Source: Nitrospirota bacterium
GTDB lineage: Bacteria > Nitrospirota > Nitrospiria > Nitrospirales > Nitrospiraceae
DNA: 64,000 bases
Reading direction: 5' to 3'
Assembly: GCA_004296885.1 (NCBI GenBank)
Contig: SCVN01000023.1
Span: 434,001 to 498,000 of the forward strand
Shown here: positions 26,504-42,380 of the stretch, piece after piece
Position numbering within the stretch: position 1 is the first letter of the stretch
Layout of the letters: the number at the start of each line of letters is the position of its first letter
The notes under the pieces: generated by a model
Database searches by the model: none
What the model was told of the DNA's origin: nothing
What the model saw: only the letters and a program-made list of their open reading frames with translations
Program-made: the position numbers and the translations under genes

Positions 26504-26505
26504 CC

Positions 26506-27894
26506 ATGCGCGCGACCATTTTCGTGACCGACGATGAGCCCGCCATCCGCTCGGCCATCGGCAAACGACTCAGCCGCCAGCAACACCAGGTCCGCACCTT
26601 CGAGTCGGGCGAAGCGCTCGTGGACGCGCTCGACACCGAGCCCCCCGACCTGGTCCTGCTCGACCTGAAGATGCCCGGCATGACCGGGCTTGAGACGCTC
26701 AAGGTGCTCCGCCAAAAGTCCCCGCAAGCGCTGGTGATCATCCTGACCGCCTTTGGGACCGTGCAGGATGCGGTGGCGGCCATGAAACTCGGCGCCTACG
26801 ACTTTTTGATCAAGACCGTCGACCTGGAGGGCATGGACTCGGTCCTCGAGCGGGCGTTGGAACTCCTGACGCTCCGGCGTCGCGTCCTCTTCGAGATGGA
26901 GCATGCAGGCAGCCAGTACACCCTGGAAAACTTGGTGGCGCACAGTTCGGCCATGCAGCATCTGGTGACGCAGTTGCGCGACGTGGTACAGAACCCGAAA
27001 GCCACGGTCCTGCTCCAGGGTGAAACCGGGACGGGCAAGGAGTTTATCGCGCGGGTCCTGCACCACAATAGCAGCCGCGCCTCGGCGCCCTTCATCGGAG
27101 TCAATTGCACGGCGATCCCCCGGGACCTGTTCGAGAGCGAACTCTTCGGCTACGAACGGGGCGCGTTCACCGGAGCCGGCCAGCGCAAGCTGGGCCTGCT
27201 GGAACGGGCCGAAGGCGGCACCATGTTCCTGGACGAGATCGGAGATCTCGACCCCGCCATGCAGGCCAAGCTGCTCCGCGTCCTCCAGGAACGATCCTTC
27301 AGGCGGCTGGGCGGGGCCGACGATATCGCCGTGGACTTTCGGCTCATCGCCGCCACCAACCGCGACCTCAAGAAGGAAGTCGCCCGCGGCACCTTCCGGG
27401 AGGACCTTTTCTTCCGTGTGAACATGGTGCTGTTCGAACTGCCGCCGCTGAGGAAACGTTCGGAGGACATCCTTCCCCTATGCCTGCGCACCCTGATGCG
27501 CGCCAACAAGGAGTTCAATAAGGAGGTCCTGGACATCGAGCCGGATGCCCGCGTCATGCTGGAACGGTATGCTTTTCCGGGCAATGTCCGGGAACTGCAG
27601 AACATCATCGAGCGGGCCCTGATATTCTGCCACGGCAAGACACTCACCGCCGCCGCCCTCCCGCAAGAGCTGCGGCAGACTTCCCCGCCGGTCACCACGA
27701 CGGCGACCACGGGCGCCGGACAGGTCCTGCGCGTCGAGATGCCGCTGGGGCAGATGTCCCTCGCCGAGGTCGAGGACGCTATCATCCGGGAAGTCCTTCG
27801 CCTCGCCGACTACAACAAAAGCCTCGCCGCCAAACACCTGGGGCTCACGCGATTTGCGCTCGACCGCCGATTGAAGAAGGGGCAAGAGGAATAG
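26506..27894 (+). CDS. Sigma54-dependent response regulator (NtrC family)
   Basis: 462 residues: receiver domain with acid pair near residues 9-11 and phospho-acceptor D53 (LVLLDLKMPG), AAA+ activator domain with Walker A GETGTGKE and the sigma54-contacting GAFTGA at about 219-224, Walker B GGTMFLDEIGDL, and a C-terminal Fis-type HTH (DYNKSLAAKHLGLTRFALDRRL). Start ATG 26506 lies directly after the kinase stop. It activates sigma54 promoters from upstream sites; a candidate target is the GCAC(T/A)GTGC element found at four loci in this window. Confidence 0.92.
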   Translation: MRATIFVTDDEPAIRSAIGKRLSRQQHQVRTFESGEALVDALDTEPPDLVLLDLKMPGMTGLETLKVLRQKSPQALVIILTAFGTVQDAVAAMKLGAYDFLIKTVDLEGMDSVLERALELLTLRRRVLFEMEHAGSQYTLENLVAHSSAMQHLVTQLRDVVQNPKATVLLQGETGTGKEFIARVLHHNSSRASAPFIGVNCTAIPRDLFESELFGYERGAFTGAGQRKLGLLERAEGGTMFLDEIGDLDPAMQAKLLRVLQERSFRRLGGADDIAVDFRLIAATNRDLKKEVARGTFREDLFFRVNMVLFELPPLRKRSEDILPLCLRTLMRANKEFNKEVLDIEPDARVMLERYAFPGNVRELQNIIERALIFCHGKTLTAAALPQELRQTSPPVTTTATTGAGQVLRVEMPLGQMSLAEVEDAIIREVLRLADYNKSLAAKHLGLTRFALDRRLKKGQEE

Positions 27895-28320: not shown

Positions 28321-28602
28321 TCACTCCGACATCCCAGAAGGAGCGTTGCCCTCCCTGCGCAACGCGGCGACGCTCTCCTCCTCCAGCGTCACCGTGAGGC
28401 CGGGCCGGCTCCAATTGCGAGCACGCCCCGGCCGTGTCAATTTCAGCTGCGGCGGACAGGACCTGTTCGCCGTGATGACAGCATCCTCGATGCACCCGCA
28501 GTTCAGGCATCGCACGCCCGGAAGCATCCCCGCAGGCATTCTTTCCCCCGTCCCTTCATAGGTCTCCCGAATAGCCAACCCGCCACAGCGACCGCATCGC
28601 AT
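28321..28602 (-). CDS. Small zinc-ribbon protein
   Basis: 93 residues. Starts MRCGRCGGLAIRETYEG and has a second pair in VRCLNCGCIEDAVI, the layout of a two-CxxC zinc ribbon. The C-terminal half is basic and unassigned. It resembles the protein at 35250-35495 in motif order and in operon position behind a small regulatory gene under a sigma54-like promoter. GGGGAG lies about 10 bases before ATG 28602. Likely nucleic-acid or protein binding; function unknown. Confidence 0.65.
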   Translation of the reverse strand: MRCGRCGGLAIRETYEGTGERMPAGMLPGVRCLNCGCIEDAVITANRSCPPQLKLTRPGRARNWSRPGLTVTLEEESVAALRREGNAPSGMSE

Positions 28603-28633
28603 GGCAGCGGCTCCCCCCTTGATTCCGGCCTTT

Positions 28634-28885
28634 TCAGGCCAGGCCCTGTGACATACCCGGCATGTTTTCTCGCAACAAAATCTCCATGTCCCATTTGTGA
28701 GGGAACAGGTCGATCAGATGCCTGGCATGGAGTCGGCTCAACGCCGACAGGAGAACCTTCCACGAACAACCGCTCAAAACATCGGCAAGCTCAAGAAACA
28801 TCACTCGCCGGCGCCGACGCAAGAAATCCAGGATTTGGTCTTCGACGTGCGATGCCGTCGGCATCGTGAACCGGTGAGTTTGCAT
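28634..28885 (-). CDS. Small winged-helix-like protein
   Basis: 83 residues. SHVEDQILDFLRRRRRVMFLELADVL followed by SWKVLLSALSRLHARHLIDLFPHKWD has the helix-helix-turn-helix and wing spacing of a winged-helix DNA-binding domain. ATG 28885 has GAAGGA upstream and lies about 50 bases after a predicted sigma54 start site. An alternative ATG at 29032 (AGAGAGGG site) would add a Cys-containing N-terminus but would start upstream of that promoter. Probably co-transcribed with the zinc-ribbon gene. Confidence 0.55.
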   Translation of the reverse strand: MQTHRFTMPTASHVEDQILDFLRRRRRVMFLELADVLSGCSWKVLLSALSRLHARHLIDLFPHKWDMEILLRENMPGMSQGLA

Positions 28886-28948: not shown

Positions 28949-28962
28949 GCAAATCCTATTCC
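28949..28962 (-). promoter_or_regulatory. Weak sigma54-like -24/-12 promoter
   Basis: On the minus strand GG (28962-28961) and TTGC (28952-28949) have the exact -24/-12 spacing: GG-AATA-GGAT-TTGC. The CACG part of the -24 box is not conserved. About 65 bases upstream of ATG 28885 and about 110 bases downstream of the enhancer-like element at 29071. Confidence 0.35.
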
Positions 28963-29070
28963 CTTCTCCAGTGCCCCTCCTATCATCACGAGAGTTGCGT
29001 GAATGCGTGCAGGAGTTACACGATTGCGTCATGAGGCCCTCTCTTTTTTGTGCGGCGGACTGGCGCCCTC

Positions 29071-29090
29071 GCACTGTGCGCCATGTGCGA
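29071..29090 (-). promoter_or_regulatory. Enhancer-like element, copy A (GCACTGTGC + GTGCGA)
   Basis: Plus-strand GCACTGTGCG, CCAT, GTGCGA. The same arrangement occurs at 36120-36139 and 42119-42138, and inverted at 34281-34300. It lies upstream of a sigma54-like promoter, as expected for an NtrC-type upstream activating site. Confidence 0.6.
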
Positions 29091-29178
29091 TACCGCCCAG
29101 GCGACCGTCACCCCGAACCTACATCAGTCACACATCAGTCAATGGCGATGGATGATCGATTGGCAGGCTGCCACAGCC
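29071..29178 (-). repeat. Upstream homology block A (related to 36120-36215)
   Basis: About 108 bases similar to the block at 36120-36215. Shared landmarks include the GCACTGTGCGCC element, the CATCAG stretch, AATGG(A/C)-GATC and TTGGCAGGCTGCC followed by CAGCC. Block A has a small internal duplication (CAGTCACACATCAGTC) that B lacks. It is a duplicated promoter-upstream region of two paralogous operons. Confidence 0.7.
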
Positions 29179-29252
29179 AAAGCGCGGGCGCCTCGCCCCA
29201 GAGGTCGCCCAAGGAAACGACCGTCCACCGATCCGACCTTCCGGTCGAGGGC

Positions 29253-29819
29253 CTACTTCTTGAGCCGCACGACGACCGCGCCCATGAGATCCCCTTGCTT
29301 GAAATCCCTCTTCGTGCTGGTGGGATGCTGGTTGTGGCAATCGGCACAGGCCTGCTCGATGGCGAAGTCCGCGGCCAGCCCCTTGAATTGATTGCCGTCC
29401 GCGAAGGTGATCACCGTCTGGCTTGGGTTGTCCGTCAGGGCCTTGAGCGCGGCGACTTCGGCCTCGGTTTGAGGGAAATTGGACGAATAGATCGGCGTCA
29501 GCGAGATCACCCCCACGTCCACATCCTTGACCGCGCCCTTGAGTTCTGCCGCCGCCAGCTTCACAAACTGAAAGGGCAACATGATGGCGTGGACATCCTG
29601 AGCCCAGTGCTCCTTGGGATGAATCCCCCCTTTCTTGACATGCTCCTCGACGTATTTCACGTAGACCGTACGAAAGGCTTTGACCGTCGCCAGCAGATAG
29701 CGAACCACCTGCTCTTTGGGCTCCGAGTCCGGTTGACCTGCCCGGCTCACCGGAGCCATCGCCCCCACGAACAGGAGCGTTGCGACGGCTCCTGCCATGA
29801 TTCTTTTCCGCTTGCCCAT
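29253..29819 (-). CDS. Periplasmic DUF3365/Tll0287-like heme protein
   Basis: 188 residues. Signal peptide MGKRKRIMAGAVATLLFVGAMAPVSRA, a helical sensor-like domain (KAFRTVYVKYVEEHVKKGG...) and a C-terminal heme c motif CADCH in IEQACADCHNQHP. DUF3365 domains bind heme and sense or transfer electrons in the periplasm. ATG 29819 follows GAGGAGG. It lies 55 bases after the porin pair and is probably in the same transcript. Its last 9 codons plus flank are duplicated at 27910-27954. Confidence 0.82.
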   Translation of the reverse strand: MGKRKRIMAGAVATLLFVGAMAPVSRAGQPDSEPKEQVVRYLLATVKAFRTVYVKYVEEHVKKGGIHPKEHWAQDVHAIMLPFQFVKLAAAELKGAVKDVDVGVISLTPIYSSNFPQTEAEVAALKALTDNPSQTVITFADGNQFKGLAADFAIEQACADCHNQHPTSTKRDFKQGDLMGAVVVRLKK

Positions 29820-29874
29820 GAAACCTCCTCGAAGCGAATTGCGCCCCATGCCAAGCCGCTTCTGCGCTCGGTGT

Positions 29875-31320
29875 TCAATAAATCAAGGTGAACCGGAAAA
29901 TCAGCATGTTTGCAGCCCGAGGGGCGGCGTACATCTGATTCGCGCCTTGAAACTCGGAGTGCTCCCAAATCCACTGGTAACGGAACTCCCGGCTGGCGTA
30001 CCAGTTCACGGCGAAGCTGGTCGCCTTGGTCGTGCGAACGTACTGGGCCGTGTCGGCAAAATTGAGCCCGAAGGCTTGAGGGTCGATGCGCTGTTCGGAG
30101 TACCGAGCCGCGACCGTCCAGGCGCCCCACCGGCCCTTCTTCGAGAGATCGAACGGCTGCCTGGGCGTGACACGGATGAAGGCCGGCTCGTCGTCCGTCA
30201 CCGCGACCTCGGCCTGCGCCATCCAGGCTTCGTTTTGCAGCAGGCCCGCCTTCCCGGTGGTCTTGTCGATCTTGGGCTCCCAGGTATGGATGAACGTCGC
30301 CATGACGCCGAGCCGCCCGTAGAACCAGGTCATCTGCGGAAGGACCTTGGTTTCAAAGCCGTTGCCGGTGACTGCGGGTTGATACTGGAAGACGATGCGG
30401 TCCTGGCCCATCGTGTACATCGGCTGCTGGCACGCTGAATTCGTGCAAGCCCCGTAGAGAACCCCCACCCCGATATCGAATTGTCGAAAGGCGCGGGGGC
30501 CTTTGAGCAGAAACGGCGTGACCATGACTCTGGCCATGCCCAGCTTGTCGTTGTCGACCGAGGGCTCCGGCACGCTGGCACTGCCGATCGCCCCGTTGTT
30601 GCTGTTGAAGACGCCGAGATCGTAGCGGACGTGTCGATCCAAAATCCGGCCCGTCACGTTCGCGCCGAAGTCGCGCCGCAAGGCAAAGTTTTGGACGAGC
30701 GAGCGCTCGGCGAACACGAGGTCGAATTCCCCCTGTTGATTCTCGACGTTGAGCACCGGCTTGAACTGGCCCACGCGCACGCGGGCCCAATCATAGTAAT
30801 CCCAGTCGATGAATGCGTTGAACAACTCGCTGCGGCGGCGCGGAGCCAGGTCCGGCATGATCTGGCCGCGGAAATAGTTGGCGATCCGGAAGTCCAGGAT
30901 CGGACGAACCCGACGCAGCACGAACCCATCCGATTCGGCCCCCGGAGCATGTCCTGTTTGGCCGCCCGGGTAGCCATGGTAGTCGGCCTGGATGCCGCCG
31001 TTGAGGTGCAGCCGGTTGTTGCCGTCCGTGGAATAGAGGGAAAAGCCCCGTTCCTTAATTTCGGGCGACCAGCCCAACCCCCGCTCCATCACCCCCCGCT
31101 TATGCCCGCTCCCGACCGCCAGTGATTCCAACACGTTCAGGCGACGATCCAGCTCGCGGAGTTGCTGCTTGGTCGAAGGCGCACGCGGAGTGGCGGGAGA
31201 ATGAGGACCCTGCACAGGAGCGGTCCGGTCCGTATTTTCCGGCTGGACCGTATCGGGCTCGGCGGCCCAGGCCGTCCCATCCAACACAAGGATGAGCAGG
31301 AGCAATCCGGTGATGGCCAC
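29875..31320 (-). CDS. Porin (phosphate-selective porin O/P type)
   Basis: 481 residues. GTG 31320 begins 2 bases after the stop of the upstream porin; the signal peptide is VAITGLLLLILVLDGTAWAA. A short coiled coil (KQQLRELDRRLNVLESLAVG) precedes a beta-barrel with RLHLNGGIQADY, RRVRPILDFRIANYFRGQIMPD, RVGQFKPVLNVENQQG and a terminal aromatic strand ending LIFRFTLIY, the C-terminal signal for Bam insertion. It resembles the 31323 gene along its length. The substrate is not determinable. Confidence 0.85.
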   Translation of the reverse strand: MAITGLLLLILVLDGTAWAAEPDTVQPENTDRTAPVQGPHSPATPRAPSTKQQLRELDRRLNVLESLAVGSGHKRGVMERGLGWSPEIKERGFSLYSTDGNNRLHLNGGIQADYHGYPGGQTGHAPGAESDGFVLRRVRPILDFRIANYFRGQIMPDLAPRRRSELFNAFIDWDYYDWARVRVGQFKPVLNVENQQGEFDLVFAERSLVQNFALRRDFGANVTGRILDRHVRYDLGVFNSNNGAIGSASVPEPSVDNDKLGMARVMVTPFLLKGPRAFRQFDIGVGVLYGACTNSACQQPMYTMGQDRIVFQYQPAVTGNGFETKVLPQMTWFYGRLGVMATFIHTWEPKIDKTTGKAGLLQNEAWMAQAEVAVTDDEPAFIRVTPRQPFDLSKKGRWGAWTVAARYSEQRIDPQAFGLNFADTAQYVRTTKATSFAVNWYASREFRYQWIWEHSEFQGANQMYAAPRAANMLIFRFTLIY

Positions 31321-31322
31321 GG

Positions 31323-33062
31323 TTAAAACGTCATTTGCATGCGGAACATCAACCCGTCTTCGTGGCTGGCGGCGCGGTAGGCGCGCGTCGCCCCCGTGAA
31401 GTCGGTATGGACGAAATTGGTCGTCAGCCTCACATTGGTATTGAGATACCAGTTCAGGCCGACGGTTGAGCTTTTGGCCCGCAAGACGTTGATCGTAGGA
31501 TCGGCCAGGTTGTACGCAAAGGTTTCCGGATCGATGTTGAGCTGGGCGTACCGGGCCGCAATTTCCCAAGCCCCCCAGTGGCCTTTCGACGGTTCGACCG
31601 GATAGCGGGGCTGCACATGGCCGAAGGTGGCCGTGTCGTCCGTCAGAAACCAGGAGGCCTGGGCCGACCAGGACTCGTGCGTCGTGCGGACCGATGGCCC
31701 CCCGGTGACCAAGCGCAGTTGTTGCGTGCTGCGCACATACTGACCGAGCAATCCCAGCCGTCCCACGTACCAGGCCACCTGGGGCGAAATGCGGATACGC
31801 TGGCCGTCTCCGGTGACATTGCTGTTGTATTGAAAGAAGGTGTAACTGAAAGTTTCCGTCTGCATCGGATCCTGCCCGCTGCTCCCCTGCTTGACCGACC
31901 CGACGCTCATCCCAACGCCATACCCCAGGCCCCGGAACATACTGGTCGTGGAGGCGACGAACGGACGCGAGAAGATCCGCGCCTCCAGCGTCTTGGCCGA
32001 TCCGGTGGCGGCGCTTTCCTGGTAAAAATTCGCGTTGGGCACGCCGTTGAACACGCCCAACTGATATTCAAAGAGGCCCCGTTCATAGACGCCCCAGACC
32101 ATCGCCCCCAGGTCGCGGTTCGGCAGCAGATTGCGTGTCAGCGATCGCTCCATGAAGCTGAGGTTCTGCGGCGCCTGGAGCATCTCCAGGCCGATCGGGC
32201 TCTTGAACTTGCCCATGCGGATCCGGAACAGCGAAAAATAGTCCCATTCGCCGAACGCATCCGGAACTTGCACACGTCCCTGGACGTTCGGATTATTGGT
32301 AAAGCCATTGCCGAAATCCGGCGTCATGTAGCCGCGGAAGTACCGCCAGAGGCGGAAATGCACCATGGTCCGAGCCCGCTCAACAATGAACGTGCTCGGG
32401 TTCACGCCGGGATTCGCGCCATTCTGGCCGCCCGGAAAGGTCCGCAGATCGGTCTGCAGCAACACCGGCAGCCGCAGGAAGAAATCGCCGTCGCCGGACA
32501 TGAGAAAGAACCCGTTGTGCCTGGTGTAGCCGCCGATCATCCCGGCCAACCCCTGATGTTCCTCCGTCCCCACGAGCACCCGTTCAAGTTCACCGACGCG
32601 CTGACTGAGCTTTTGCACTTGTTGGTCAAGTTCGGGACTGAGACTGTCTTTGGGAGCCGGCGAGGGCTGAGGCTGGGATGATGGCTCTTCACCGAGGCGC
32701 TGCGCCTGCAGGCGCTGGAACGTCTTCCGCAGCTCGTCCACTTCCTGAAAATCGATCGGCGGAGCCCCGTCGCGTTCGTCCACAATCGGCGGAGGCAGCG
32801 GCGCAGGTTGCGGGAGCCGGTCCGGCTCCGTGGCGGGACCGGCGTGAGGCAACCTCGCACGGGCCTCCTGCAGTCGCTCCCGCGCCGCATTCAGCTCAGC
32901 CTCATCGATGGGCGGCACTTCGTCGTAGTAGCCGAAATAGGGCTCGACGGCCCAGACCGGCTGGGCCCAGTTCATGCACAGAATGGCCGCGGCCACGCCG
33001 AGCCGCCGCTTGAACAAGCGTGAGGATTCGTGGCACCATTGAGCGAGTTGCGAGACTGTCAT
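31323..33062 (-). CDS. Porin (phosphate-selective porin O/P type), paralogue
   Basis: 579 residues. Signal peptide near LFKRRLGVAAAILCMNWAQPVWA; a long N-terminal extension with Pro-rich linkers and a coiled coil (LDQQVQKLSQRVGELERVLVG); then a barrel with LPVLLQTDLRTFPGGQNG, RTMVHFRLWRYFRGYMTPD, RMGKFKSPIGLEMLQ and a terminal strand ending LMFRMQMTF. Same order of motifs as the next gene, indicating tandem duplication. Only 30 bases separate its ATG from the divergent lipoprotein start. Confidence 0.85.
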   Translation of the reverse strand: MTVSQLAQWCHESSRLFKRRLGVAAAILCMNWAQPVWAVEPYFGYYDEVPPIDEAELNAARERLQEARARLPHAGPATEPDRLPQPAPLPPPIVDERDGAPPIDFQEVDELRKTFQRLQAQRLGEEPSSQPQPSPAPKDSLSPELDQQVQKLSQRVGELERVLVGTEEHQGLAGMIGGYTRHNGFFLMSGDGDFFLRLPVLLQTDLRTFPGGQNGANPGVNPSTFIVERARTMVHFRLWRYFRGYMTPDFGNGFTNNPNVQGRVQVPDAFGEWDYFSLFRIRMGKFKSPIGLEMLQAPQNLSFMERSLTRNLLPNRDLGAMVWGVYERGLFEYQLGVFNGVPNANFYQESAATGSAKTLEARIFSRPFVASTTSMFRGLGYGVGMSVGSVKQGSSGQDPMQTETFSYTFFQYNSNVTGDGQRIRISPQVAWYVGRLGLLGQYVRSTQQLRLVTGGPSVRTTHESWSAQASWFLTDDTATFGHVQPRYPVEPSKGHWGAWEIAARYAQLNIDPETFAYNLADPTINVLRAKSSTVGLNWYLNTNVRLTTNFVHTDFTGATRAYRAASHEDGLMFRMQMTF

Positions 33063-33092
33063 CGTCGGACAACCTTTCGTGAGGAGGACGCC

Positions 33093-33599
33093 ATGCCGAG
33101 GCGCCTGAGGAGCCCATCCGGAGCCATCCTGGCTTGTGCCCTATGGGGAATCGCGGCCTGCTCGACCGGTCCGATGAGCGGCCCCCATGCCGAACGGCTA
33201 CGTACGCCGGAAGGCCTCGCGGAATGGAATCAGCAAGAACTGAGCCTACGCGGAGAGGTACGCGCCACGGCCGATCAGTACGGGCGTGCCAAGTCTCTGG
33301 ATGCTCTGCAGAGCTACGAGAAGTCGGTCCGCGCGTTTCTCGATCACGGATTCGCCCTTTACCGGGCCTATCGGGCGGCCCGTTTGGACCCTCCGCCCGA
33401 TCTCATTCCTTCGCTGGAACAGCGCACGGCTTGGCTCATGGACGTGGCGGAGGAGTACATCAAGCTCGGCAGCGTCGCGATGGGGGAAGGAATCGCGGCG
33501 GACGTGGTGCACGACTATTCGGATCTGCCGGTGCTGGCGCCGGCCCAGCGGCGCGCCGAGGCCGTGCTCATGCGGTACCGCTATCGGCAGGACTACTAA
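33093..33599 (+). CDS. Lipoprotein of unknown function
   Basis: 168 residues. Signal with lipobox GIAAC (ILACALWGIAACSTGP), then a mostly helical, charged mature region (EWNQQELSLRGEVRATADQY... LMDVAEEYIKLGSVAMGEG). GAGGAGG precedes ATG 33093. Divergent from the porin operon with only 30 bases between starts, and convergent with the next gene (4 bases between stops). Outer-membrane location is inferred from the lipobox context. Confidence 0.75.
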   Translation: MPRRLRSPSGAILACALWGIAACSTGPMSGPHAERLRTPEGLAEWNQQELSLRGEVRATADQYGRAKSLDALQSYEKSVRAFLDHGFALYRAYRAARLDPPPDLIPSLEQRTAWLMDVAEEYIKLGSVAMGEGIAADVVHDYSDLPVLAPAQRRAEAVLMRYRYRQDY

Positions 33600-33603
33600 A
33601 ACG

Positions 33604-34152
33604 CTAGTCTTCGGAGACGACGGTCCACTCGACCAGACGGCCGTCCCGAAAGACGAGGTCCCATTCGTAGGGCCGGTCGAGCATGGCCAGGTACCGGAAT
33701 CGGGCCATGGCCCCGACGGCAAACCGCTCCGTGGGCTTCCCGTACAGCCGCAGCACCTCTTCCATCGTTGCGCCCAACTCCAGGCCTTCTTCCGTGCGCA
33801 GCGACATCGTGTGCGCCAAGGGGGCATAGCAGACGCCGGCGAGCGGAGGGTCCTTGGAAACCGTAATGGCATCCACGCGACTGTTGACTTCCAGCCGCAG
33901 GAAATAATGGCCTTTGGCGTCCTTGGCGTTGTAGAGATACGACACGGTGTCGCCGGTCAGGGACGGCACCAGGCACGGCGACGCGCCGAGCTTGCGTTCC
34001 ACATCCGACGCCCCGTCGTGGCCCACCAGCACGGTGGCGATGCCTAGGTCATGCACGATGCCCGCCGGCTCGGCAGCCCAGACCTGACCACTCTCCGCCG
34101 ACAACAGGAGTAACATCAGGCACCTTCCCCCGGTCCGAATGACGCTCTTCAT
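33604..34152 (-). CDS. Secreted BamE/OmlA-like small protein
   Basis: 182 residues. Signal peptide MKSVIRTGGRCLMLLLLSAESGQVWAA. The C-terminal part ELGATMEEVLRLYGKPTERF ... YEWDLVFRDGRLVEW has the helix, Gly-Pro and strand order of the SmpA/BamE-like fold. ATG 34152 lies about 40 bases after a near-consensus sigma54 promoter, so it is the best-supported single-gene member of the sigma54 set in this window. Function unknown. Confidence 0.75.
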   Translation of the reverse strand: MKSVIRTGGRCLMLLLLSAESGQVWAAEPAGIVHDLGIATVLVGHDGASDVERKLGASPCLVPSLTGDTVSYLYNAKDAKGHYFLRLEVNSRVDAITVSKDPPLAGVCYAPLAHTMSLRTEEGLELGATMEEVLRLYGKPTERFAVGAMARFRYLAMLDRPYEWDLVFRDGRLVEWTVVSED

Positions 34153-34204
34153 AATCCAGCCCCATCTCCCATGGCCATGTGGTGGAACAGCAGTTTTTAT
34201 ATAG

Positions 34205-34220
34205 AGCAATGCGCATGCCA
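34205..34220 (-). promoter_or_regulatory. Near-consensus sigma54 promoter
   Basis: Minus strand TGGCATG-CGCA-TTGCT matches the sigma54 consensus TGGCACG-N4-TTGCW with one mismatch and exact spacing. The start site would be near 34194, about 42 bases before ATG 34152. The enhancer-like element D lies about 62 to 80 bases upstream. Confidence 0.7.
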
Positions 34221-34280
34221 CGCTATCCCGTCCCGATAGCCTTACAATCTGACCGGCCGTCTGGATTATTGAGCGAACGC

Positions 34281-34300
34281 GCACAGGCCGCACTGTGCAC
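34281..34300 (-). promoter_or_regulatory. Enhancer-like element, copy D (inverted)
   Basis: Plus-strand GCACAGGCC then GCACTGTGC. Read on the plus strand it matches the minus-strand form of copy C, so this copy is inverted relative to A, B and C, as enhancer sites can be. Confidence 0.5.
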
Positions 34301-34646
34301 GACCTCAATGAACCGGCATGGCCAAGGACACAAGGTTGGTCCCGTGGGCCATGGCAGGCAGAGGGCGCTGCTTCGATTTCGGGGGCATACCGAGACTGAA
34401 GAGGACTGGAAGACAGGACGGATAGACAGTCGAACCGATGCTCGCTCGTGCATTCGAGTTCAACCCAGGGGCAGTCGTTGTCAATGCAAATGGCGGACTA
34501 ACCGGGCAAGGACGGAAGGACTCTCGCCTGCCGATGGCAAGACAGGCGCTGACGGTGCAAACCGCACCGCCGCTACGCCCACAAGCCGCTCCCTTTGCGG
34601 GACGCCTCCGCAATCCTCCGTATCAGCCGACCAAGACAGCGCCCCG
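34301..34646. other. Non-coding stretch, no gene recognised
   Basis: About 350 bases with weak ORFs on both strands and no convincing ribosome site. It contains a small hairpin GGTGC-AAACC-GCACC near 34553 and a G/A-rich segment CGGGCAAGGACGGAAGGAC. I compared it by eye with the cobalamin, c-di-GMP, glycine, TPP and SRP RNA patterns and found no match. Confidence 0.4.
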
Positions 34647-35195
34647 CTATCCGCCGTTGCGCCTTTCGCGCCAGAGAAGCTCCGGCCTGTGAAACACTAT
34701 GCGGCGATACTGCTCCGGATACCACTCTCTGCAACAGTCGAGACACATGCCATGCGAGAAAATGGCCTCGGAATGCTCCTCAATGTACTCCTCAAACTTT
34801 CTCCACTCATCCCGGCTGTCTCGAATCTTCTTGCAGGAGGCGCAAATGGGCAAGAGGCCGCGCAGGCCCCTGCGCGGCTCTTTATGCATGAGGATCAACA
34901 GAACCGTCACCCAGATCGCCAGGACCGCCAGTGCCCGGTTGAGTACCCCCATCCAGACAATGCCGTCCTGCGAAGACAGAAAAAACCCGACAATGGTCAG
35001 CAGCGTTCCCGCCGAGGCTGCGATCAGCGTATCGTGTCGCAACGAGGGCCAGAGGGTCACGAGCACCGCCCCGACATACAGCATCGGAACCGCGACGCCA
35101 TGCGGGGCCACTAGGTCCAGAGCAAACACGGCGACCGACCAGATCATGGCCGCCACCACCGATTGGAAACGCTTCGTCTGTTCCGCCGCCGTCAT
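34647..35195 (-). CDS. Membrane protein with C-terminal four-cysteine module
   Basis: 182 residues. About four hydrophobic helices (residues 15-110), then a soluble tail GLLPICASCKKIRDSRDEW ... EEYIEEHSEAIFSHGMCLDCC. The CASCKKIRD plus SHGxCxxC module is usually found at the C-terminus of PAS or receiver-linked signalling proteins; here it is attached directly to membrane helices without PAS, kinase or GGDEF parts. Last gene of the receiver/zinc-ribbon operon. Probably metal-binding; function unknown. Confidence 0.75.
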   Translation of the reverse strand: MTAAEQTKRFQSVVAAMIWSVAVFALDLVAPHGVAVPMLYVGAVLVTLWPSLRHDTLIAASAGTLLTIVGFFLSSQDGIVWMGVLNRALAVLAIWVTVLLILMHKEPRRGLRGLLPICASCKKIRDSRDEWRKFEEYIEEHSEAIFSHGMCLDCCREWYPEQYRRIVFHRPELLWRERRNGG

Positions 35196-35249
35196 CAGTA
35201 CCCCCAAGGCAAGTGCCGCCCACTCACACGAGTGTCCTGTGCCCCCGCC

Positions 35250-35495
35250 TCACGGTCCCAAGCGAATCGCCACGTGCCGCCGGCGCGGGCCTCTCCCCGA
35301 TGCCGGCGCCGAGGAGCGTCCCGCCAAACGGAGCCAGGTCCGTCGCTCGACAATGTGAGCGTCCACCACCTCGCCGCAATTCATGCAACGCCAGACGTGC
35401 AGCCAAATGGAGCTGCTGGATTCTTTCAAGTCCAACAGATGATCTTCGGCCATCAGCCCCTGACATCGTGCGCATTGCAGGGCGGACTTCTTCAT
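35250..35495 (-). CDS. Small zinc-ribbon protein
   Basis: 81 residues, MKKSALQCARCQGLMAEDHL ... WRCMNCGEVVDAHIVERR with two CxxC pairs, then an Arg/Pro-rich tail. Same layout as the protein at 28321-28602 and the truncated start at 27981. It follows the receiver gene by 16 bases. A longer start at 35555 would overlap the receiver gene and is rejected. Predicted zinc-binding; role unknown. Confidence 0.7.
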   Translation of the reverse strand: MKKSALQCARCQGLMAEDHLLDLKESSSSIWLHVWRCMNCGEVVDAHIVERRTWLRLAGRSSAPASGRGPRRRHVAIRLGP

Positions 35496-35511
35496 ACGGA
35501 ATCTGGCCTCG

Positions 35512-35937
35512 TCACTCCCGCACAAAATCTGTCGAAGCGGAATGCACGGCCGCAAACCGATCGCGCTTCACCTGCATCAAGCGTCGAATCAGCTCCGGCA
35601 ACCGTGCCCCCACTTCCCACTTCGGCACAAAGCCATCGGCGCCGGCCGCTTCGGCCGTTCGCCCGTAGGCTTCCTGGTCATGCAACGTCACAATGATCAC
35701 CAGGGGCACGGGCGTCCCGGCCTTGATACGCCTGGTCACTTCCAAGCCGTTCATCAAGGGGAGGGTCAGATCCACGACGACCACGTCGGGACGAAGACGC
35801 GCAACAAGTTCCAGCCCCTTGGCGGCCGAATAGGTCCCGCCCACAATTTCGAACGCCTCATCGTCGGCGAGCAACTGCCTGACGGTCTTTAAAAATTGGG
35901 GATTATTGTCAACCAGCAGGATTCGAATCGCCGGCAT
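35512..35937 (-). CDS. Single-domain response regulator (receiver only)
   Basis: 141 residues. Receiver domain with RILLVDNNPQF (Asp-Asn instead of Asp-Asp in the acid pair), phospho-acceptor D56 in VVVVDLTLPLMNG, switch Thr in IIVTLHDQ and Lys in GFVPKWE. No output domain. ATG 35937 has GAGG 9 bases upstream; ATG 35961 is an alternative. It leads the B operon and could relay phosphate or act by protein contact. Confidence 0.85.
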   Translation of the reverse strand: MPAIRILLVDNNPQFLKTVRQLLADDEAFEIVGGTYSAAKGLELVARLRPDVVVVDLTLPLMNGLEVTRRIKAGTPVPLVIIVTLHDQEAYGRTAEAAGADGFVPKWEVGARLPELIRRLMQVKRDRFAAVHSASTDFVRE

Positions 35938-36033
35938 CGCCTGCCTCGCCGCTCGTGTCATTGCCCTGTGCTTCCATACCCCCTGCACCAAGCCCTTCCG
36001 TCCAAGCTACGCTGAGGCAGGTACGGGATCCCT

Positions 36034-36049
36034 TGCAAAACCCGATCCT
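36034..36049 (-). promoter_or_regulatory. Sigma54-like promoter for the receiver operon
   Basis: Minus strand AGGATCG-GGTT-TTGCA: GG and TTGCA have exact -24/-12 spacing, and the -24 box matches 4 of 6 core bases. The start site would be near 36023, about 85 bases before ATG 35937. Element B lies about 72 to 92 bases upstream. Confidence 0.5.
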
Positions 36050-36119
36050 GTGCCGATTACCGGAAACCCTCATGGAAGTTGAAGAATGATCGCGCAATAG
36101 ATGAGGCGCCTCCGGCATC

Positions 36120-36139
36120 GCACTGTGCGCCCCGTGCAA
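36120..36139 (-). promoter_or_regulatory. Enhancer-like element, copy B
   Basis: Plus-strand GCACTGTGCG, CCCC, GTGCAA. Same layout and orientation as copies A and C. Confidence 0.6.
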
Positions 36140-36215
36140 TATCGCTCGACCGGCTATCACCTCGATCCGCATCAGACAATAACAATGGACGATCAGTTGG
36201 CAGGCTGCCGCAGCC
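36120..36215 (-). repeat. Upstream homology block B (related to 29071-29178)
   Basis: About 96 bases colinear with block A. It overlaps the 3' end of the secreted protein gene 36193-36621, whose last codons (RLRQPAN) fall within it; block A has a similar reading WLWQPAN but no intact gene. Confidence 0.65.
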
Positions 36216-36621
36216 GAAATCCCGGGGCCTTTTGTCGGCTGCCTGAAGGTGCGGTTACACAACCGTCCGCTCTTGCCGGTCGCCCCCCGCCGCTTTCAGT
36301 TCCAGTATCGGATCTGAGTCGCGATGGGCTGCGGCCTGCTTCCGGCCCCAGCAAGCCGGACCCAGGTCCGATTGACGGAGCAAGGGGGAACGTCGGCGAA
36401 CCAAGGTCCGGGCTTCTCGGAGGGATATGGGAGTCGGGTACGGCCCCGCGGTCTCTATTAGGAAAACCTCGATCGGTACGATCCGGGCCTGGCGCGACGC
36501 CAATCGCTCCCGATGGATTCGCGTGACGGTTGCCGGCTGCGTCAAGAGACTGCCCTTGCACGATGGCAGGCCCGACAACAAGCCCAACGCACAGGACCGC
36601 GCTGCGCAGGACGTGCTTCAC
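36193..36621 (-). CDS. Small secreted protein, possibly frameshifted
   Basis: 142 residues. GTG 36621 has AAGGAG five bases upstream, and MKHVLRSAVLCVGLVVGPAIVQGQ is a good signal peptide. After about 30 codons this frame becomes Pro/Gly-rich with low GC at third positions, while another frame (running to a stop at 36255) keeps the GC-rich third-position pattern and reads as an ordinary protein (IVPIEVFLIETAGPYPTPIS). A frameshift after the signal peptide is therefore possible. It follows the EmrA-like gene by 68 bases. Confidence 0.45.
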   Translation of the reverse strand: MKHVLRSAVLCVGLVVGPAIVQGQSLDAAGNRHANPSGAIGVAPGPDRTDRGFPNRDRGAVPDSHIPPRSPDLGSPTFPLAPSIGPGSGLLGPEAGRSPSRLRSDTGTESGGGRPARADGCVTAPSGSRQKAPGFRLRQPAN

Positions 36622-36689
36622 GCCCACTCCTTCGTACGCTCACTGTCCCTCGACCGACGGGATTGCTTCTGAATCGGTCGCCGTCGCTT

Positions 36690-37967
36690 CTACGGAGACA
36701 GTTCCGCGATACTCAGCTCGACACTTTTCGGTACGGATGCCGTGCCTTGCGCCTCGCGGTCCTCCGACGTCGCCTTCGGTCGATCACGGTCGGCAAGCAG
36801 GTTGGCCGTCATGACCTCCCGGGCTATCGACTCCGCGTTCGGCAGTTCATCGGCATAGATGTCCGTCTCGTACTCCGAGGTGGAGACGGTCGCGAGCGAG
36901 GACCAGACGGACTGACCCGACTCGGCGACCTTGATCTGCGTCACCGTGGAGAGCCCCGGCCTGACGGGATGTTCCCGGATCTCGTCTTGCGGCAGGGAAA
37001 TGCGCACCGGCACACGCTCGACGATGTGAATAAAATTGCCGGTGGCATTGTCCGGAGGCAAGAGGGCGAATGCGCTGCCGGTTCCGGGGACCAGGCCTTC
37101 GACGGTGCCGTGAAATGTCAGCCGTTCGCCGTACAAATCGACGCTGACCGAGGCGGGCTGGCCCGGCCGCACCAATTGCAGCTCGGTTTCGCGCAAGTTC
37201 GCCTCGACCCAGAGGTGGTCCAGGGGGACGATCGTCATCAAATCGCTGCCCGGTTTGACCCGATCCCCCACCTGGGCTCTCCGTTTGGCCACGTATCCTG
37301 ACACCGGCGCCAGGATTTGCTGCCGCTTGTATTCCAGATAGGCGTCGATGAGTTCATGCTTGGCCAACTCGACGGCCGGATGGTCCATGATGCTCGTGCC
37401 GCCCACTTGCGCATCGAGTACCTCGAGCGCCGCCTGGGTTTCCCGGACTTCGGCCTCCAACGCCCGGATCTTGTCGGCGGCGTTCTGCAGAATCTGTTTC
37501 GAGACCGCCCCGCTCGGCGAAGCCAGTTGGTACCGATCCAAATCGTGGCGGACCAGGTCGAGCTGGGCTATCTTGGCCGACACTTTTTCCTCGAGCTGTG
37601 CGCGAGTCTTGAACAGCGCGGCAATCCGGCGCACCTCCTCCCCGAGACGCCCTCGCGCACGTCCCAGCGCCGCGAAGGCCTCGTGCTCATCAAGATGGAT
37701 CACGAGGTCGCCCCGGTTCACAAACTGCGTCTCCTCGGCCAACACTTGCGTGACGATGCCCGAGGCCTGCGCCGCGACCGTGACAAGGTTGCCCGTGACG
37801 TACGCATTGTCGGTCCGAACCCAGAAACGGTCGTAGGACCACCAGTGCCAGCCGTAGGCGCCCCCGGCGGCGGCCAGCAGCAGGGCCACCAGCAGCAGCA
37901 GGCGGGTCCGCCTGACGCGAATGGTCTTGGGATGGATTTTGGGTGAAGGAGGTGTCGTGGTATGCAT
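36690..37967 (-). CDS. EmrA/HlyD-family membrane fusion protein
   Basis: 425 residues. One N-terminal helix (LLLLVALLLAAAGGAYGWHWW), then RVRTDNAYVTG-like RFWVRTDNAYVTGNLVTVAA, a biotinyl-lipoyl half site (GIVTQVLAEETQFVNRGDLVIHLD), a coiled-coil hairpin, and LAPVSGYVAKRRAQVGDRVKPGSDLM, all typical of EmrA. It bridges the DHA2 transporter encoded at 39474 and the NodT channel encoded at 37972 to form a tripartite drug exporter. Confidence 0.9.
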   Translation of the reverse strand: MHTTTPPSPKIHPKTIRVRRTRLLLLVALLLAAAGGAYGWHWWSYDRFWVRTDNAYVTGNLVTVAAQASGIVTQVLAEETQFVNRGDLVIHLDEHEAFAALGRARGRLGEEVRRIAALFKTRAQLEEKVSAKIAQLDLVRHDLDRYQLASPSGAVSKQILQNAADKIRALEAEVRETQAALEVLDAQVGGTSIMDHPAVELAKHELIDAYLEYKRQQILAPVSGYVAKRRAQVGDRVKPGSDLMTIVPLDHLWVEANLRETELQLVRPGQPASVSVDLYGERLTFHGTVEGLVPGTGSAFALLPPDNATGNFIHIVERVPVRISLPQDEIREHPVRPGLSTVTQIKVAESGQSVWSSLATVSTSEYETDIYADELPNAESIAREVMTANLLADRDRPKATSEDREAQGTASVPKSVELSIAELSP

Positions 37968-37971
37968 AGCC

Positions 37972-39477
37972 TCAGCCGGGTTTCTGTGTGGGTCTGTTCC
38001 GGACGTCCGGGTTATGGTACCCGCCGCCCAGCGCTTCGATGAGATCGACCGTGGCGACCAGTTGATCGCTTTCCAGGGCCTTCAATACATATTCCTGCTC
38101 CAAGACCGGATGCCGATGCCGCAACACTTCCCGGTCATCGTCCAGCCCGCTTGTCAGACGCACCTTGGCCAAGCGCCAATCGTCGCCGAGCGAGGCCAGG
38201 AGTCGCCGATGGGCCTCGAGCATCTCGTTGGTCGCCTGCCAGGCGCTCAAACTGTCCGCCACGTCCCGCATCGCATCCAGCAAGGTCTCGTTATAGAGTT
38301 CCACGGCCGCGTCATATTCGGCCCGCTGGGCGGCCAACTCACCCCGCAGCCGCCCCCCTTCAAACCAGGGAAGGCGAAAGCCTGGCGCCAAGCCATAGGA
38401 AAAACTTTGGCCTGAAAACAGCAAGTTGCCCAACTGATTGGAGCCTTTGGCAAGGGTCAGAGCATTGAATCCGACGAAACCCGTCAGGTCGATCGTCGGC
38501 AGGAATTGCGTCTTGGCCACTTTCACCAACCGGGCCGCCGCATCGGCCCTGTAAAGAGCGGCGGCCAAATCCGGACGATGGACCAACAGCCCGATCGAAA
38601 GATGATCGGGCAGCGGAATCTGCTCCGGAACGACCACATGGCCCGTGAAGAGGTCCTTCGCGAAATCAGGCCCCTTGCCGGCCAGCCGGCCGAGCAAGTG
38701 TCGCTGGACATCCAATTGATCCCGCACACCCGCTGCACGCTTGTTGGCCGCTTCCAACTCCGCGATGGCCTGCTTCACGGCGAGATCGTTGTCCAGCCCC
38801 AGCCGGAACCGCGTCTCCGCGAGCTGCCGCAGGTCGCGGCGGATGCCGACCATCGCCTGGACAAGGTCGAGTTGTCGGTGGAGCGCCTGGCCGCGGAAGT
38901 AGGCCCGCGCCACGCCGGCGGTCAAGTGCAGCCGCACTTCGGCTTTTTCCGCCTCCTCGGCCGCCGTCCGCCCCAGAGCCGCTTCGAGCATCGCGCGGTT
39001 CTTCCCCCAGAAATCGAATTCGTACCGGAAGCTCAAGGGGTTGATGACCCCATAGAGAATCCGAATGCCGGCCACTTCGCGGTTCAAGGCCGCAAAGACC
39101 CCATGCTGGGAAATCCGCTCATAGGTCAGCGAGGCATCGGCATCCAGAAACGGCAACAGCCGCGCGCCTTCGACGCGCACGAGCCCCTGCGCTTCCCGGA
39201 GCCGGGCCGATGCGACCTTGAGCCCGGGATTGTCCTGCAGCGCGGTCTCCATGAGCCGGTTGAGCTCGGGATTGCCGAACTGCTCCCACCAACGGTCGTC
39301 CGGCCACTGCTGCAAGCGGCTCGTCACCTCCGCCAACGTCGCCTTCATCTCCGGCGGCTCGATGATTTCCGCCGGGGGATCGCCAGGCGGAATCCAGGCG
39401 CACCCGCCCAAGAGGAACAGGCAGCCGAGGCCGAGACAGACACAGAGATGCCGGGAGATGACGTATGAGGGGCTCAT
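37972..39477 (-). CDS. NodT-family outer-membrane efflux lipoprotein
   Basis: 501 residues. Lipoprotein signal with lipobox LLGGC, then DDRWWEQFGNPELNRLMETAL, NPGLKVASARLREAQG and a second repeat with RPDLAAALYRADAAARLVKVAKTQFLPTIDLTG, the two outer-membrane efflux repeats of TolC/NodT proteins. It forms the exit duct of the EmrAB-like pump. Start overlaps the transporter stop by 4 bases. Confidence 0.9.
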   Translation of the reverse strand: MSPSYVISRHLCVCLGLGCLFLLGGCAWIPPGDPPAEIIEPPEMKATLAEVTSRLQQWPDDRWWEQFGNPELNRLMETALQDNPGLKVASARLREAQGLVRVEGARLLPFLDADASLTYERISQHGVFAALNREVAGIRILYGVINPLSFRYEFDFWGKNRAMLEAALGRTAAEEAEKAEVRLHLTAGVARAYFRGQALHRQLDLVQAMVGIRRDLRQLAETRFRLGLDNDLAVKQAIAELEAANKRAAGVRDQLDVQRHLLGRLAGKGPDFAKDLFTGHVVVPEQIPLPDHLSIGLLVHRPDLAAALYRADAAARLVKVAKTQFLPTIDLTGFVGFNALTLAKGSNQLGNLLFSGQSFSYGLAPGFRLPWFEGGRLRGELAAQRAEYDAAVELYNETLLDAMRDVADSLSAWQATNEMLEAHRRLLASLGDDWRLAKVRLTSGLDDDREVLRHRHPVLEQEYVLKALESDQLVATVDLIEALGGGYHNPDVRNRPTQKPG

Positions 39478-41072
39478 GGCACCTCCATCCCCAATTCCTC
39501 CGCCAGCATCTCCGGCAACTCCTCTTCGACAGTCTGATGGGCGGGCAACTGCGTCGGCTCCGCCAGCCAGACCAGCGCCGCCAGGCCGAGGAAGATATAG
39601 CTGGCCACGAGAAACGCATCGTTCAACCCCAGGATGGCGGCGGACTGTTTGATGATCGCCGTCAGCTTGCCCTGAACCATGGCCGGATCGAGCCCGGCGT
39701 CGCCCAGCTTGGCCGACACATGCTCCAACCCGTCGAACGATACGAACTGCCTGCCACCGAAATGATCCGACAGATTCAGTTGATGAAAGGGGGCGCGTCG
39801 AAAGAGCACGATCCCCTGGAAGGCGATGCCGAAGGCTCCGGCCGCAATGCGCAACAGGGCCGCCAATTCCGCCGCCCGCCCGACGACCCGACCGGAGAGG
39901 CCGTGCAGAGTCAGGACGGTCAACGGGGTGAAAAACGATCCGAGGAACAGTCCTTCGAACAACATGGGCCAGAAAATCTGGTCATACGAGTGGGGATCGT
40001 CGAACAAGCCGATCCAGTAGAAGACGCCTGCAAACCCGAGACAACTGAGGCTTGCAAGCCACCGAGCATCGATGCGCTTGCAGAGTTCGTGCATGACGGC
40101 AATGGCCGGCGCGCCCAGCAGGATCATGGGCAGGAACACCAGGCCGGCCAGAAAGGACGAATAACCCAACAAGACCTGAAGCTGAACGATAAACAGCGCG
40201 AGCAGCCCTTGGATCGACAGGAACCCGGCCGTCAGGCAGAGCACCCCGATCGCAAAATTGCGATGGGCGAACAAGCGGACGTCCACCGCAGGATGGCGCT
40301 CACCCAACTCCCAAATGACCAGGCAAGGCAGCGCCACGAGGATGGCAACCAACACCCCTCGAAGAAAGGGCGAGTCCAACCAGTCAAAATCGTTCCCCAT
40401 GTTCAGCAGCGTCTGGACGCCGCCGAGCACCAGGACCAAGAGGGCAAATCCGACAACATCGAAACGGATGAAGCGACGCTCGAACCCCCGACCATACAGC
40501 AACGAACCGGTGATGCCGGCGATGGCCACCGCCATGGGAATGTTCAGATAAAACAAATACCGCCAACCGAGTTCGTCGGCGATCCAGCCCCCCAGGGGAA
40601 GGCCGATGGTAAACGGCATCAACGTGAACAGCCCCCAGACCCCCAAGCCCAGCGATTTGAGCCGGTCCGGGTACTCGTTCAGCCACAGAGCCTGCCCAAG
40701 CGGGAGCGTGATGCCGCCGGCAAGACCGAGGAGCACCCGCGCAGGCAAAAACAGCCAGAGGGTCTGGCTGATGGCGCAGAGATACGAGGCGCCCGAATAC
40801 AGGACAAAGGCGGCGACGAACAGGCGGTAATTGCCGACCCGGAACGCCAGCCACCGGGCGAGGGGGAATCCCAGCGCCAAGGCGACCATGAAATCGGTTT
40901 GGGCCCAGGTCCCGAAGCTCGGCAGAACCCCTCCGAGATCGCTGGCTGCATGTGGCAACAGCGCCACATAGGACCCGGCATTGAACAGCACGACCATGTG
41001 CCCCAGGCCGAGCATGAGGTTCAAGAGGAGAAAGCGCCAGCCTCGCAGCCGTTTGGGAAACAGGACCGGCAT
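39474..41072 (-). CDS. EmrB-like MFS transporter (DHA2, 14 TMS)
   Basis: 532 residues with about 14 hydrophobic segments. MFS signatures include RVLLGLAGGITLPLGQAL and GLPLGGWIADELGWRYLFYLNIP (DHA2 motif C region). Drug:proton antiporter expected in the inner membrane with EmrA and NodT partners. It starts 23 bases after the FNT gene, so the four genes look like one operon from the sigma54 promoter at 42027. Confidence 0.9.
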   Translation of the reverse strand: MPVLFPKRLRGWRFLLLNLMLGLGHMVVLFNAGSYVALLPHAASDLGGVLPSFGTWAQTDFMVALALGFPLARWLAFRVGNYRLFVAAFVLYSGASYLCAISQTLWLFLPARVLLGLAGGITLPLGQALWLNEYPDRLKSLGLGVWGLFTLMPFTIGLPLGGWIADELGWRYLFYLNIPMAVAIAGITGSLLYGRGFERRFIRFDVVGFALLVLVLGGVQTLLNMGNDFDWLDSPFLRGVLVAILVALPCLVIWELGERHPAVDVRLFAHRNFAIGVLCLTAGFLSIQGLLALFIVQLQVLLGYSSFLAGLVFLPMILLGAPAIAVMHELCKRIDARWLASLSCLGFAGVFYWIGLFDDPHSYDQIFWPMLFEGLFLGSFFTPLTVLTLHGLSGRVVGRAAELAALLRIAAGAFGIAFQGIVLFRRAPFHQLNLSDHFGGRQFVSFDGLEHVSAKLGDAGLDPAMVQGKLTAIIKQSAAILGLNDAFLVASYIFLGLAALVWLAEPTQLPAHQTVEEELPEMLAEELGMEVP

Positions 41073-41095
41073 CGCGTATCCTCACTCAACCAAAA

Positions 41096-41968
41096 TCAGA
41101 AGGATGCAAACGAACCGGCTCGGCTGCTGCTGTGGCCCTCTTGCAGTTGCATGGTCACACCTCCCGCAGGCGCCGGTTTGGCCGCGCGGTGCGTGGCATA
41201 GATCGCCAAACCGGTGAAGACCATCCCGCCGACCAGGTTGCCCAGCGTGACTGGAATCTGGTTCCAGAGCCACCAATTCGACAGGGTCACGTTGGCGCCC
41301 AACAACATGCCGACCGGAATCGCAAACATGTTCACTACGGCATGCTCGAATCCTTGGGAAAAGAACAGGACTGTAGGGCCCCAGATCGCGAGCATCTTGC
41401 CCGCGAAGGACGTCGACGCAAACGCCGCGATGACCGCCAGACTGACCATCCAGTTGCACAAGATCGCCTTCGTGAACACGGTGAGCAGGCCCGCGGAGCC
41501 ATGCGCCGCGTAGTGAGTCGTCTTGGCTTCGGCGATCGCCATCAGCTTGGCCCCGACTGCGGAGACTTGGACGTCCCCTGCCATGGTCAGCGCGATCCAA
41601 AAAAACAGGGCATAGAGGGTGCTGCCTATGAGGTTGCCCAGAAAGACCCAGCCCCAGTTACCAAGCACGCGACCGATCCCCACTTGCCCCCCGCTCTCGA
41701 CCGCCGCGCAGGGAAGCAACGCAAAGCTTCCGGTGATGATTTCCGCTCCGAGCAAAATGGCCAGTGCAAGTCCGAAAGGAAAGAGTATGGAGCCGACGAT
41801 CCAGAATCCGGTTTCGACCGCGGCGGTGACCGCCATGCTGGTGGCCACGCCCAGATAGGCGCCGGCTAACATGCCTCGAATCACCAAGTGTCGAGCCGGC
41901 AAGTCCAGCTTGAACGCGCCGCCGGCCACCATGCTCTCGACCACACCTTGAGGCTTCACATAGTCCAT
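41096..41968 (-). CDS. Formate/nitrite transporter family channel (FNT)
   Basis: 290 residues with six hydrophobic segments. FNT signatures are RGMLAGAYLGVATSMAV (near helix 1), LLGAEIITGSF, GNLIGSTLYALFFW, ILCNWMVSLAVI and the central-His motif FFSQGFEHAVVNMFAIPVG. FNT channels move formate, nitrite or related small anions across the inner membrane. In a nitrite oxidiser, nitrite is the natural guess, but specificity is not readable here. First gene of the FNT-EmrB-NodT-EmrA operon. Confidence 0.9.
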   Translation of the reverse strand: MDYVKPQGVVESMVAGGAFKLDLPARHLVIRGMLAGAYLGVATSMAVTAAVETGFWIVGSILFPFGLALAILLGAEIITGSFALLPCAAVESGGQVGIGRVLGNWGWVFLGNLIGSTLYALFFWIALTMAGDVQVSAVGAKLMAIAEAKTTHYAAHGSAGLLTVFTKAILCNWMVSLAVIAAFASTSFAGKMLAIWGPTVLFFSQGFEHAVVNMFAIPVGMLLGANVTLSNWWLWNQIPVTLGNLVGGMVFTGLAIYATHRAAKPAPAGGVTMQLQEGHSSSRAGSFASF

Positions 41969-42026
41969 GATGCCCCCTTCCAGACAATCGAACCGTTTTC
42001 ACCGCCTCACGACAAAAACGCGACAA

Positions 42027-42042
42027 TGCAACCTCCATGCCT
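42027..42042 (-). promoter_or_regulatory. Sigma54 promoter of the FNT-efflux operon
   Basis: Minus strand AGGCATG-GAGG-TTGCA, with the -24 GG, ATG for ACG, and complete TTGCA at -12 at exact spacing. The start site would be near 42016, about 48 bases before ATG 41968. Confidence 0.7.
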
Positions 42043-42118
42043 CTATCATCACCAAAGCAACAAGCCTTCACATCCATCGCGCACACCTTTCAGCACAACC
42101 TTAAGATCCACGACACGC

Positions 42119-42138
42119 GCACTGTGCGCCCTGTGCGA
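42119..42138 (-). promoter_or_regulatory. Enhancer-like element, copy C
   Basis: Plus-strand GCACTGTGCG, CCCT, GTGCGA, about 78 to 97 bases upstream of the sigma54 promoter of the FNT operon. Confidence 0.6.
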
Positions 42139-42380
42139 AACCGCGCACCCGGCGATCTGCCCTAGAAAAACCGCGACGCATCGCGAGCCGCATGGCGCGG
42201 CGCCGGCCGGCGATCGGTGGCGCTCGATCGGAAAATCGGATATGATCGCGCCCGTGCCGGAGAGACATCGCTTCATTGCCGGACATCACAGGGCGTGGGA
42301 ACAGCTTCCATTGCCAGAGACCGGCATGGAATGCCGGCCCCGCGCCCATGTCGCCGATTCATGGCTCACCCGGTGCTGAC

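Follow-up and report, generated by a model that had tools for sequence, protein, structure and literature searches.

A 29-bp element with four half-sites is the putative upstream activating sequence of a sigma54 regulon in the Nitrospira family and is probably read by the two-component system HKa-NtrCa

A 29-bp element which occurs in four copies within the stretch of Nitrospirota DNA analysed here (64,000 nucleotides, referred to as the window) can with high confidence be regarded as the upstream activating sequence (UAS) of a sigma54 regulon which is conserved across the Nitrospira family and read by the sensor kinase HKa together with the NtrC-type regulator NtrCa. Judged by sequence comparison, this is a previously undescribed gene-control circuit, namely a new regulon of the NtrC-type sigma54 sort whose enhancer spacing is unusually constrained. 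The features on which this reading is based are compiled in Table 1.

Table 1. Features of the window and microprotein loci of related genomes. Distances between elements and promoters run from the edge of the 29-bp element to -24.
Feature	Position	Strand	Remarks
HKa sensor kinase	24581..26503	+	CHASE3-HAMP-PAS-HisKA-HATPase (Pfam); element co-occurrence; likely NtrCa partner
NtrCa, proposed UAS reader	26461..27894	+	REC-AAA(GAFTGA)-HTH_8 (Pfam)
93-aa zinc-ribbon-like ORF	28322..28603	-	downstream of 83-aa gene; sequence only
83-aa protein	28634..28885	-	probable UAS 1 target
Weak -24/-12 candidate	28949..28964	-	GGGAATAGGATTTGCA; score 10.6; 106 bp from UAS 1
UAS copy 1	29070..29098	+	CGCACTGTGCGCCATGTGCGATACCGCCC; matrix score 33.1 (matrix trained on other genomes)
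Tll0287-like protein and two O/P-type porins	29253..33062	-	Pfam; downstream of BamE-like gene
Secreted BamE-like protein (g33.6)	33604..34152	-	UAS 2 target; BamE E 0.002, below cut-off
-24/-12 promoter	34205..34220	-	TGGCATGCGCATTGCT; perfect consensus, 1 of 5 in genome; score 17.3; 50 bp from UAS 2
UAS copy 2	34271..34299	-	TGCACAGTGCGGCCTGTGCGCGTTCGCTC; score 32.4; orientation to own promoter canonical
Receiver-domain protein and zinc-ribbon ORFs	34647..35991	-	probable UAS 3 targets; Response_reg (Pfam); Zn_Ribbon_TF match of zinc-ribbon ORFs below cut-off
Weak -24/-12 candidate	36034..36049	-	AGGATCGGGTTTTGCA; score 9.4; 69 bp from UAS 3
UAS copy 3	36119..36147	+	CGCACTGTGCGCCCCGTGCAATATCGCTC; matrix score 38.7
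FNT channel, MFS, outer-membrane factor, HlyD adaptor	36690..41968	-	Pfam; UAS 4 target operon
-24/-12 promoter of FNT operon	42027..42042	-	AGGCATGGAGGTTGCA; score 15.7; 75 bp from UAS 4
UAS copy 4	42118..42146	+	CGCACTGTGCGCCCTGTGCGAAACCGCGC; score 33.7; between FNT operon and HKb gene
Microprotein loci	L120 16296, L121 9768, L122 16470
Microprotein loci, further	L141-L143, L147, L166, L167, L169, L178, L179, L196 and others

The four copies of a shared element which the sequence-only reading had reported are indeed all present, at 29071, 36120 and 42119 of the forward strand and at 34298-34281 of the reverse strand. The last of these had been described as inverted; while its position is correct, it actually exhibits the orientation and spacing which are canonical for the family. 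Of the 11 occurrences of the 9-mer GCACWGTGC in the genome of 3.26 Mb, four are located in the window, and the seven other sites bear no resemblance to the full element, with scores below 8 in its matrix. If one mismatch is allowed, the 9-mer is found in the window at chance level (16 occurrences, 16.4 expected), so it is informative only when exact or extended. The pattern GTGCGNNNNGTGCRA with one mismatch was discarded since it, too, is at chance level genome-wide. A genome-wide scan with the extended form GCACWGTGCGNNNNGTGC yields exactly four matches, all of them inside 13.1 kb, and none for the reversed control.

Conservation reaches far beyond this organism, so that the designation “local regulon” used initially does not hold: GCACWGTGCGNNNNGTGC is present in 69 of 175 family genomes, with 119 matches compared to 7 for the reversed control. 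Alignment of 83 fetched sites reveals a 29-bp element, CGCAC-W-GTGCG-N4-GTGCG-RAWY-CGCTC, composed of four GTGCG/CGCAC half-sites which are separated by spacers of 1, 4 and 4 bp. The shared element proposed at the outset is real but extends beyond the motif as first stated. The core positions are fixed by the search pattern, and the independent evidence consists in the match of the outer positions, where a C at -1 and GCGAA...CGCTC at 18-27 are conserved although the pattern does not fix them. With a matrix trained without the window, the four window sites reach scores of 32.4 to 38.7, whereas 18.7 is the highest score among 20 shuffled windows. Low-scoring chance matches, mostly within coding sequence, were removed (L131, L173, L177, L183, L186 and L191, plus L168). 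The four copies are, as far as such comparison can tell, genuine binding-site-like elements, and dozens of related genomes contain them as well.

A flank of about 125 nt with 70% identity is common to the copies at 29071 and 36120 but was not found in the three other genomes of the genus; the local clustering thus results partly from local duplication. The intergenic homology spans 29064-29193 and 36113-36230 of the window and extends past the element. Such a shared flank would also be expected if the copies merely represented a dispersed or duplicated repeat without any regulatory role. We consider this explanation practically negligible, since across genomes only about 29 bp are conserved while the flanks have diverged, and since the elements are positioned at a set distance from the promoters of unrelated genes.

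The association of the element with downstream -24/-12 sites, as originally claimed, clearly exceeds chance. Using a hand-made -24/-12 matrix, a set of 76 non-spurious elements and a distance limit of 150 bp, outward-directed sites scoring at least 11 are detected for 46 of the 76 elements, while the inward control yields none; at a score of 9 the corresponding figures are 57 and 3. Sites on the 3' side of the element cluster at 49-53 and 60-65 bp, and 41 out of 83 -24/-12 sites are found 49-74 bp from the element. Many of these spacing counts stem from orthologous promoters; unrelated targets (FNT, BamE-like, HKa, porin-like, RND), however, also show distances of 49-53, 60-65 or 74 bp. For helical phasing, the spacers provide no more than a suggestive signal, with P 0.013 and without a sharp period. 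Within the window, the promoter of UAS 2 is located 50 bp downstream of the element, which corresponds to the commonest spacing in the family, while the other three elements adopt the less common orientation towards their promoters with spacers of 69-106 bp. From the four sigma54-like promoters assumed initially, those at 34220-34205 and 42042-42027 proved to be strong, the orthologous FNT promoters reading TGGCAYCGAGGTTGCT, but weak ones are present at 36049-36034 and 28964-28949: scores of 9.4 and 10.6 are reached by chance in 2.8% and 1.2% of cases per 100 bp, respectively.

The genome to which the window belongs harbours rpoN (PF04552, E 5.4e-59). NtrCa, whose coding sequence probably starts near 26506, matches Sigma54_activat with an E value of 4.9e-67, contains the GAFTGA loop and possesses an HTH which is nearly invariant among its orthologues. 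HKa orthologues are encoded by 63 of the 69 motif genomes compared to 29 of the 106 others, with a Fisher P of 8e-18 which overstates independence as the genomes are related; the resulting set of 92 genomes leaves out three weak or fragmentary matches. Among the six motif genomes lacking HKa, G001, G123 and G149 contain low-scoring coding matches, G095 (76%) and G144 (79%) are incomplete and carry good motifs, and G110 features a truncated HKa. If an element and HKa reside on the same contig, they are at most 30 kb apart in 46 of 64 cases. In L120 and L122-L125 the element is situated between the divergent HKa-NtrCa and FNT-MFS-OEP-HlyD operons, and in L132 and L150 it is located upstream of HKa. 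Near matches scoring 28-39 are observed at HKa loci which do not contain the exact pattern at this place (L138, L152-L157), and at six further HKa loci (L139, L140, L144, L148, L149, L151) there is no element within the fetched stretch.

Promoter association, co-occurrence of kinase and regulator, and the conserved position in front of the FNT operon are all in agreement with the initial proposal that an NtrC-type activator reads these sigma54 sites. Both NtrC-type genes of the window had been offered as readers, of which NtrCb (43940-45322) is encoded beside HKb and adjoins UAS 4, the FNT operon of the window being divergent from HKb-NtrCb rather than from HKa. NtrCb also contains GAFTGA, and its orthologues are found in 46 of the 69 motif genomes compared to 22 of the 106 others (P 2e-9), so that it might be the activator of the same sigma54 regulon. 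This is improbable, however, in view of 18 motif genomes, including G172 of the same genus, in which HKa is present without any NtrCb orthologue. Where the two systems are separated, the motif tracks HKa, being present in 18 of the 35 genomes that have HKa alone and in 1 of the 11 that have NtrCb alone, and this single case is a low-scoring coding match. In addition, distances of 63 kb to 2.8 Mb separate NtrCb from the elements in single-contig genomes. The activator is thus likely to be HKa/NtrCa (24581-27894) and not the neighbouring NtrCb; accordingly, the original claim would apply to the gene at 26461-27894 rather than to NtrCb.

Three -24/-12-like sites on the forward strand (45542-45557, 46258-46273 and 46330-46345, scoring 15.8, 12.5 and 14.7) are located between NtrCb and an RND operon without any recognisable element. 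NtrCb may control this RND operon of the window. In relatives, an element is present at RND operons (L133, L171).

Still slightly less probable than an involvement of NtrCb is the control of the regulon by some other conserved regulator to which HKa is only linked, be it the NifA-like GAF activator encoded at the nxr locus or some factor independent of sigma54. In one genus the NifA-like gene shares a locus with the element, and the fixed spacing would be compatible with another factor as well. Yet, no NifA-like orthologue is detected at E 1e-150 in the genome of the window or in several motif genomes such as G007, G008, G014 and G015, and so strong an association with -24/-12 sites calls for a bacterial enhancer-binding protein.

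Concerning the targets of the HKa-NtrCa regulon, the FNT channel with its EmrAB-type pump and the BamE-like protein had been named beforehand, and their operons are in fact located behind UAS 4 and UAS 2. The FNT operon follows the element at the same place in five relatives (L120, L122-L125), and BamE-like orthologues in L118, L130 and L137 are likewise preceded by element and promoter. The gene order of Tll0287-like protein and porins behind an element recurs in L118 and L137. In L150 a gene encoding an 84-aa orthologue of the 83-aa protein is equipped with an element and a better -24/-12 site. Further targets in relatives comprise RND pumps, HKa itself, porin-like proteins and a GDREL microprotein of about 33 residues. 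The latter, encoded behind element and sigma54 promoter, has one hydrophobic stretch and an invariant GDRE-x2-W (GDREL.W.MLA), and yields no match in Pfam or NCBIfam. Single-change codon comparisons are synonymous in 1079 and non-synonymous in 242 cases, with changes mostly at third positions; from this substitution pattern we infer that the microprotein is protein-coding. A non-coding RNA behind the seemingly gene-less promoters was rejected as these promoters encode the microprotein. In L130 and L137, the GDREL module is also found as the N-terminal part of BamE-like homologues. In the window's own organism the microprotein was not found; a GDREL match in its genome (C20:28290) was dismissed as a chance hit in an unrelated reading frame without promoter.

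In L141, L142, L146 and L147 the microprotein adjoins nxrAB. In genus g14, microprotein and element have a CHASE3 protein and nxrBA as neighbours, and this nxr locus runs on to the FNT operon and HKa-NtrCa. In L142 (4009-10795), nxrB, nxrA and the NifA-like GAF regulator are flanked by the FNT-pump operon and by a CHASE3 membrane protein standing alone, which results in one continuous locus for nitrite oxidation and regulation. The nxrB of the window organism is 96% identical to that of G017 / L142, which makes this organism very probably a nitrite oxidiser. Its nxrB (G000:C20:217-1503, G000:C5:26890-26979) is located at contig ends, which suggests that nxrAB copies have been collapsed in the assembly.

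The enhancer consensus of enteric NtrB/NtrC at glnA is TGCAC-N7-GTGCA. The present system resembles enteric NtrB/NtrC in combining a sensor kinase with a REC-AAA-HTH_8 activator and in having GCAC/GTGC half-sites upstream of -24/-12. It differs from it in the outer base (C/G), the four half-sites, the spacers of 1, 4 and 4 bp as well as in the preferred spacing and orientation. Due to this differing site spacing and to the score of NtrCa against the ntrC equivalog of NCBIfam (400 bits at a cut-off of 558.6), a classical NtrB/NtrC nitrogen regulon was rejected. AtoS/AtoC and ZraS/ZraR likewise exert two-component control over sigma54 promoters, and the best NCBIfam matches are of the AtoS and ZraS type for HKa and of the AtoC type for NtrCa. 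An identity with AtoS/AtoC was nevertheless dismissed as the scores are far below the equivalog cut-offs (AtoC 430/714, AtoS 240/646 bits). For ZraS/ZraR, too, NtrCa and HKa remain well below them, and the targets seen include neither ato nor zra genes. Sigma54-type regulators encoded beside nxr genes of Nitrospira, along with their expression, have been reported (PMC6606698, PMC7522533), and the HKa-NtrCa/FNT locus, which abuts nxrAB in one genus, resembles them in this respect. The portions of these two reports considered here deal with regulator genes and their expression and describe neither a binding site nor a target set or the geometry of promoters. No such element, binding site or regulon is described in the Nitrospira literature searched, which covers only a minority of the subscription papers. 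Together with the equivalog scores below cut-off this points to a new regulon of a known type.

According to the mechanism we propose, the CHASE3 membrane sensor kinase HKa would phosphorylate the adjacent response regulator NtrCa, which would then bind directly to the four half-sites of the 29-bp element and activate RNA polymerase-sigma54 at a -24/-12 promoter, which usually lies at a distance of 50 or 61 bp. The genes turned on in this way in the window would be those of the FNT channel and its EmrAB/TolC-like pump, of the BamE-like protein and the porins, and of two small operons; relatives would additionally turn on RND pumps, HKa itself and the 33-residue membrane microprotein beside nxrAB. 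This scheme starts out from what the genomes compared show, namely a conserved element which is associated with -24/-12 sites and is linked to and co-occurs with HKa-NtrCa. Candidates for the signal are nitrite, other N-oxides and envelope stress: nitrite or one of its products is suggested by the FNT channel and the connection with nxr, envelope stress by the pumps, the porins and the BamE-like protein. A “stress or nitrogen-compound response”, as proposed beforehand, is a putative role of the regulon. Only tentatively do we suggest that the circuit is specific to nitrite oxidisers and coordinates nitrite entry, detoxification pumps and the NXR-associated GDREL microprotein via a compact four-half-site enhancer with preferred distance and orientation, in contrast to classical NtrC, whose enhancers are flexible.

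Nitrospira are the dominant nitrite oxidisers, and their gene regulation is almost unexplored as genetic tools are scarce. The regulon exposes a conserved family of small proteins unmatched in Pfam and NCBIfam. With a site which can be read from the sequence, a named candidate activator and a list of targets, the control of nitrite handling in these bacteria would become directly testable.
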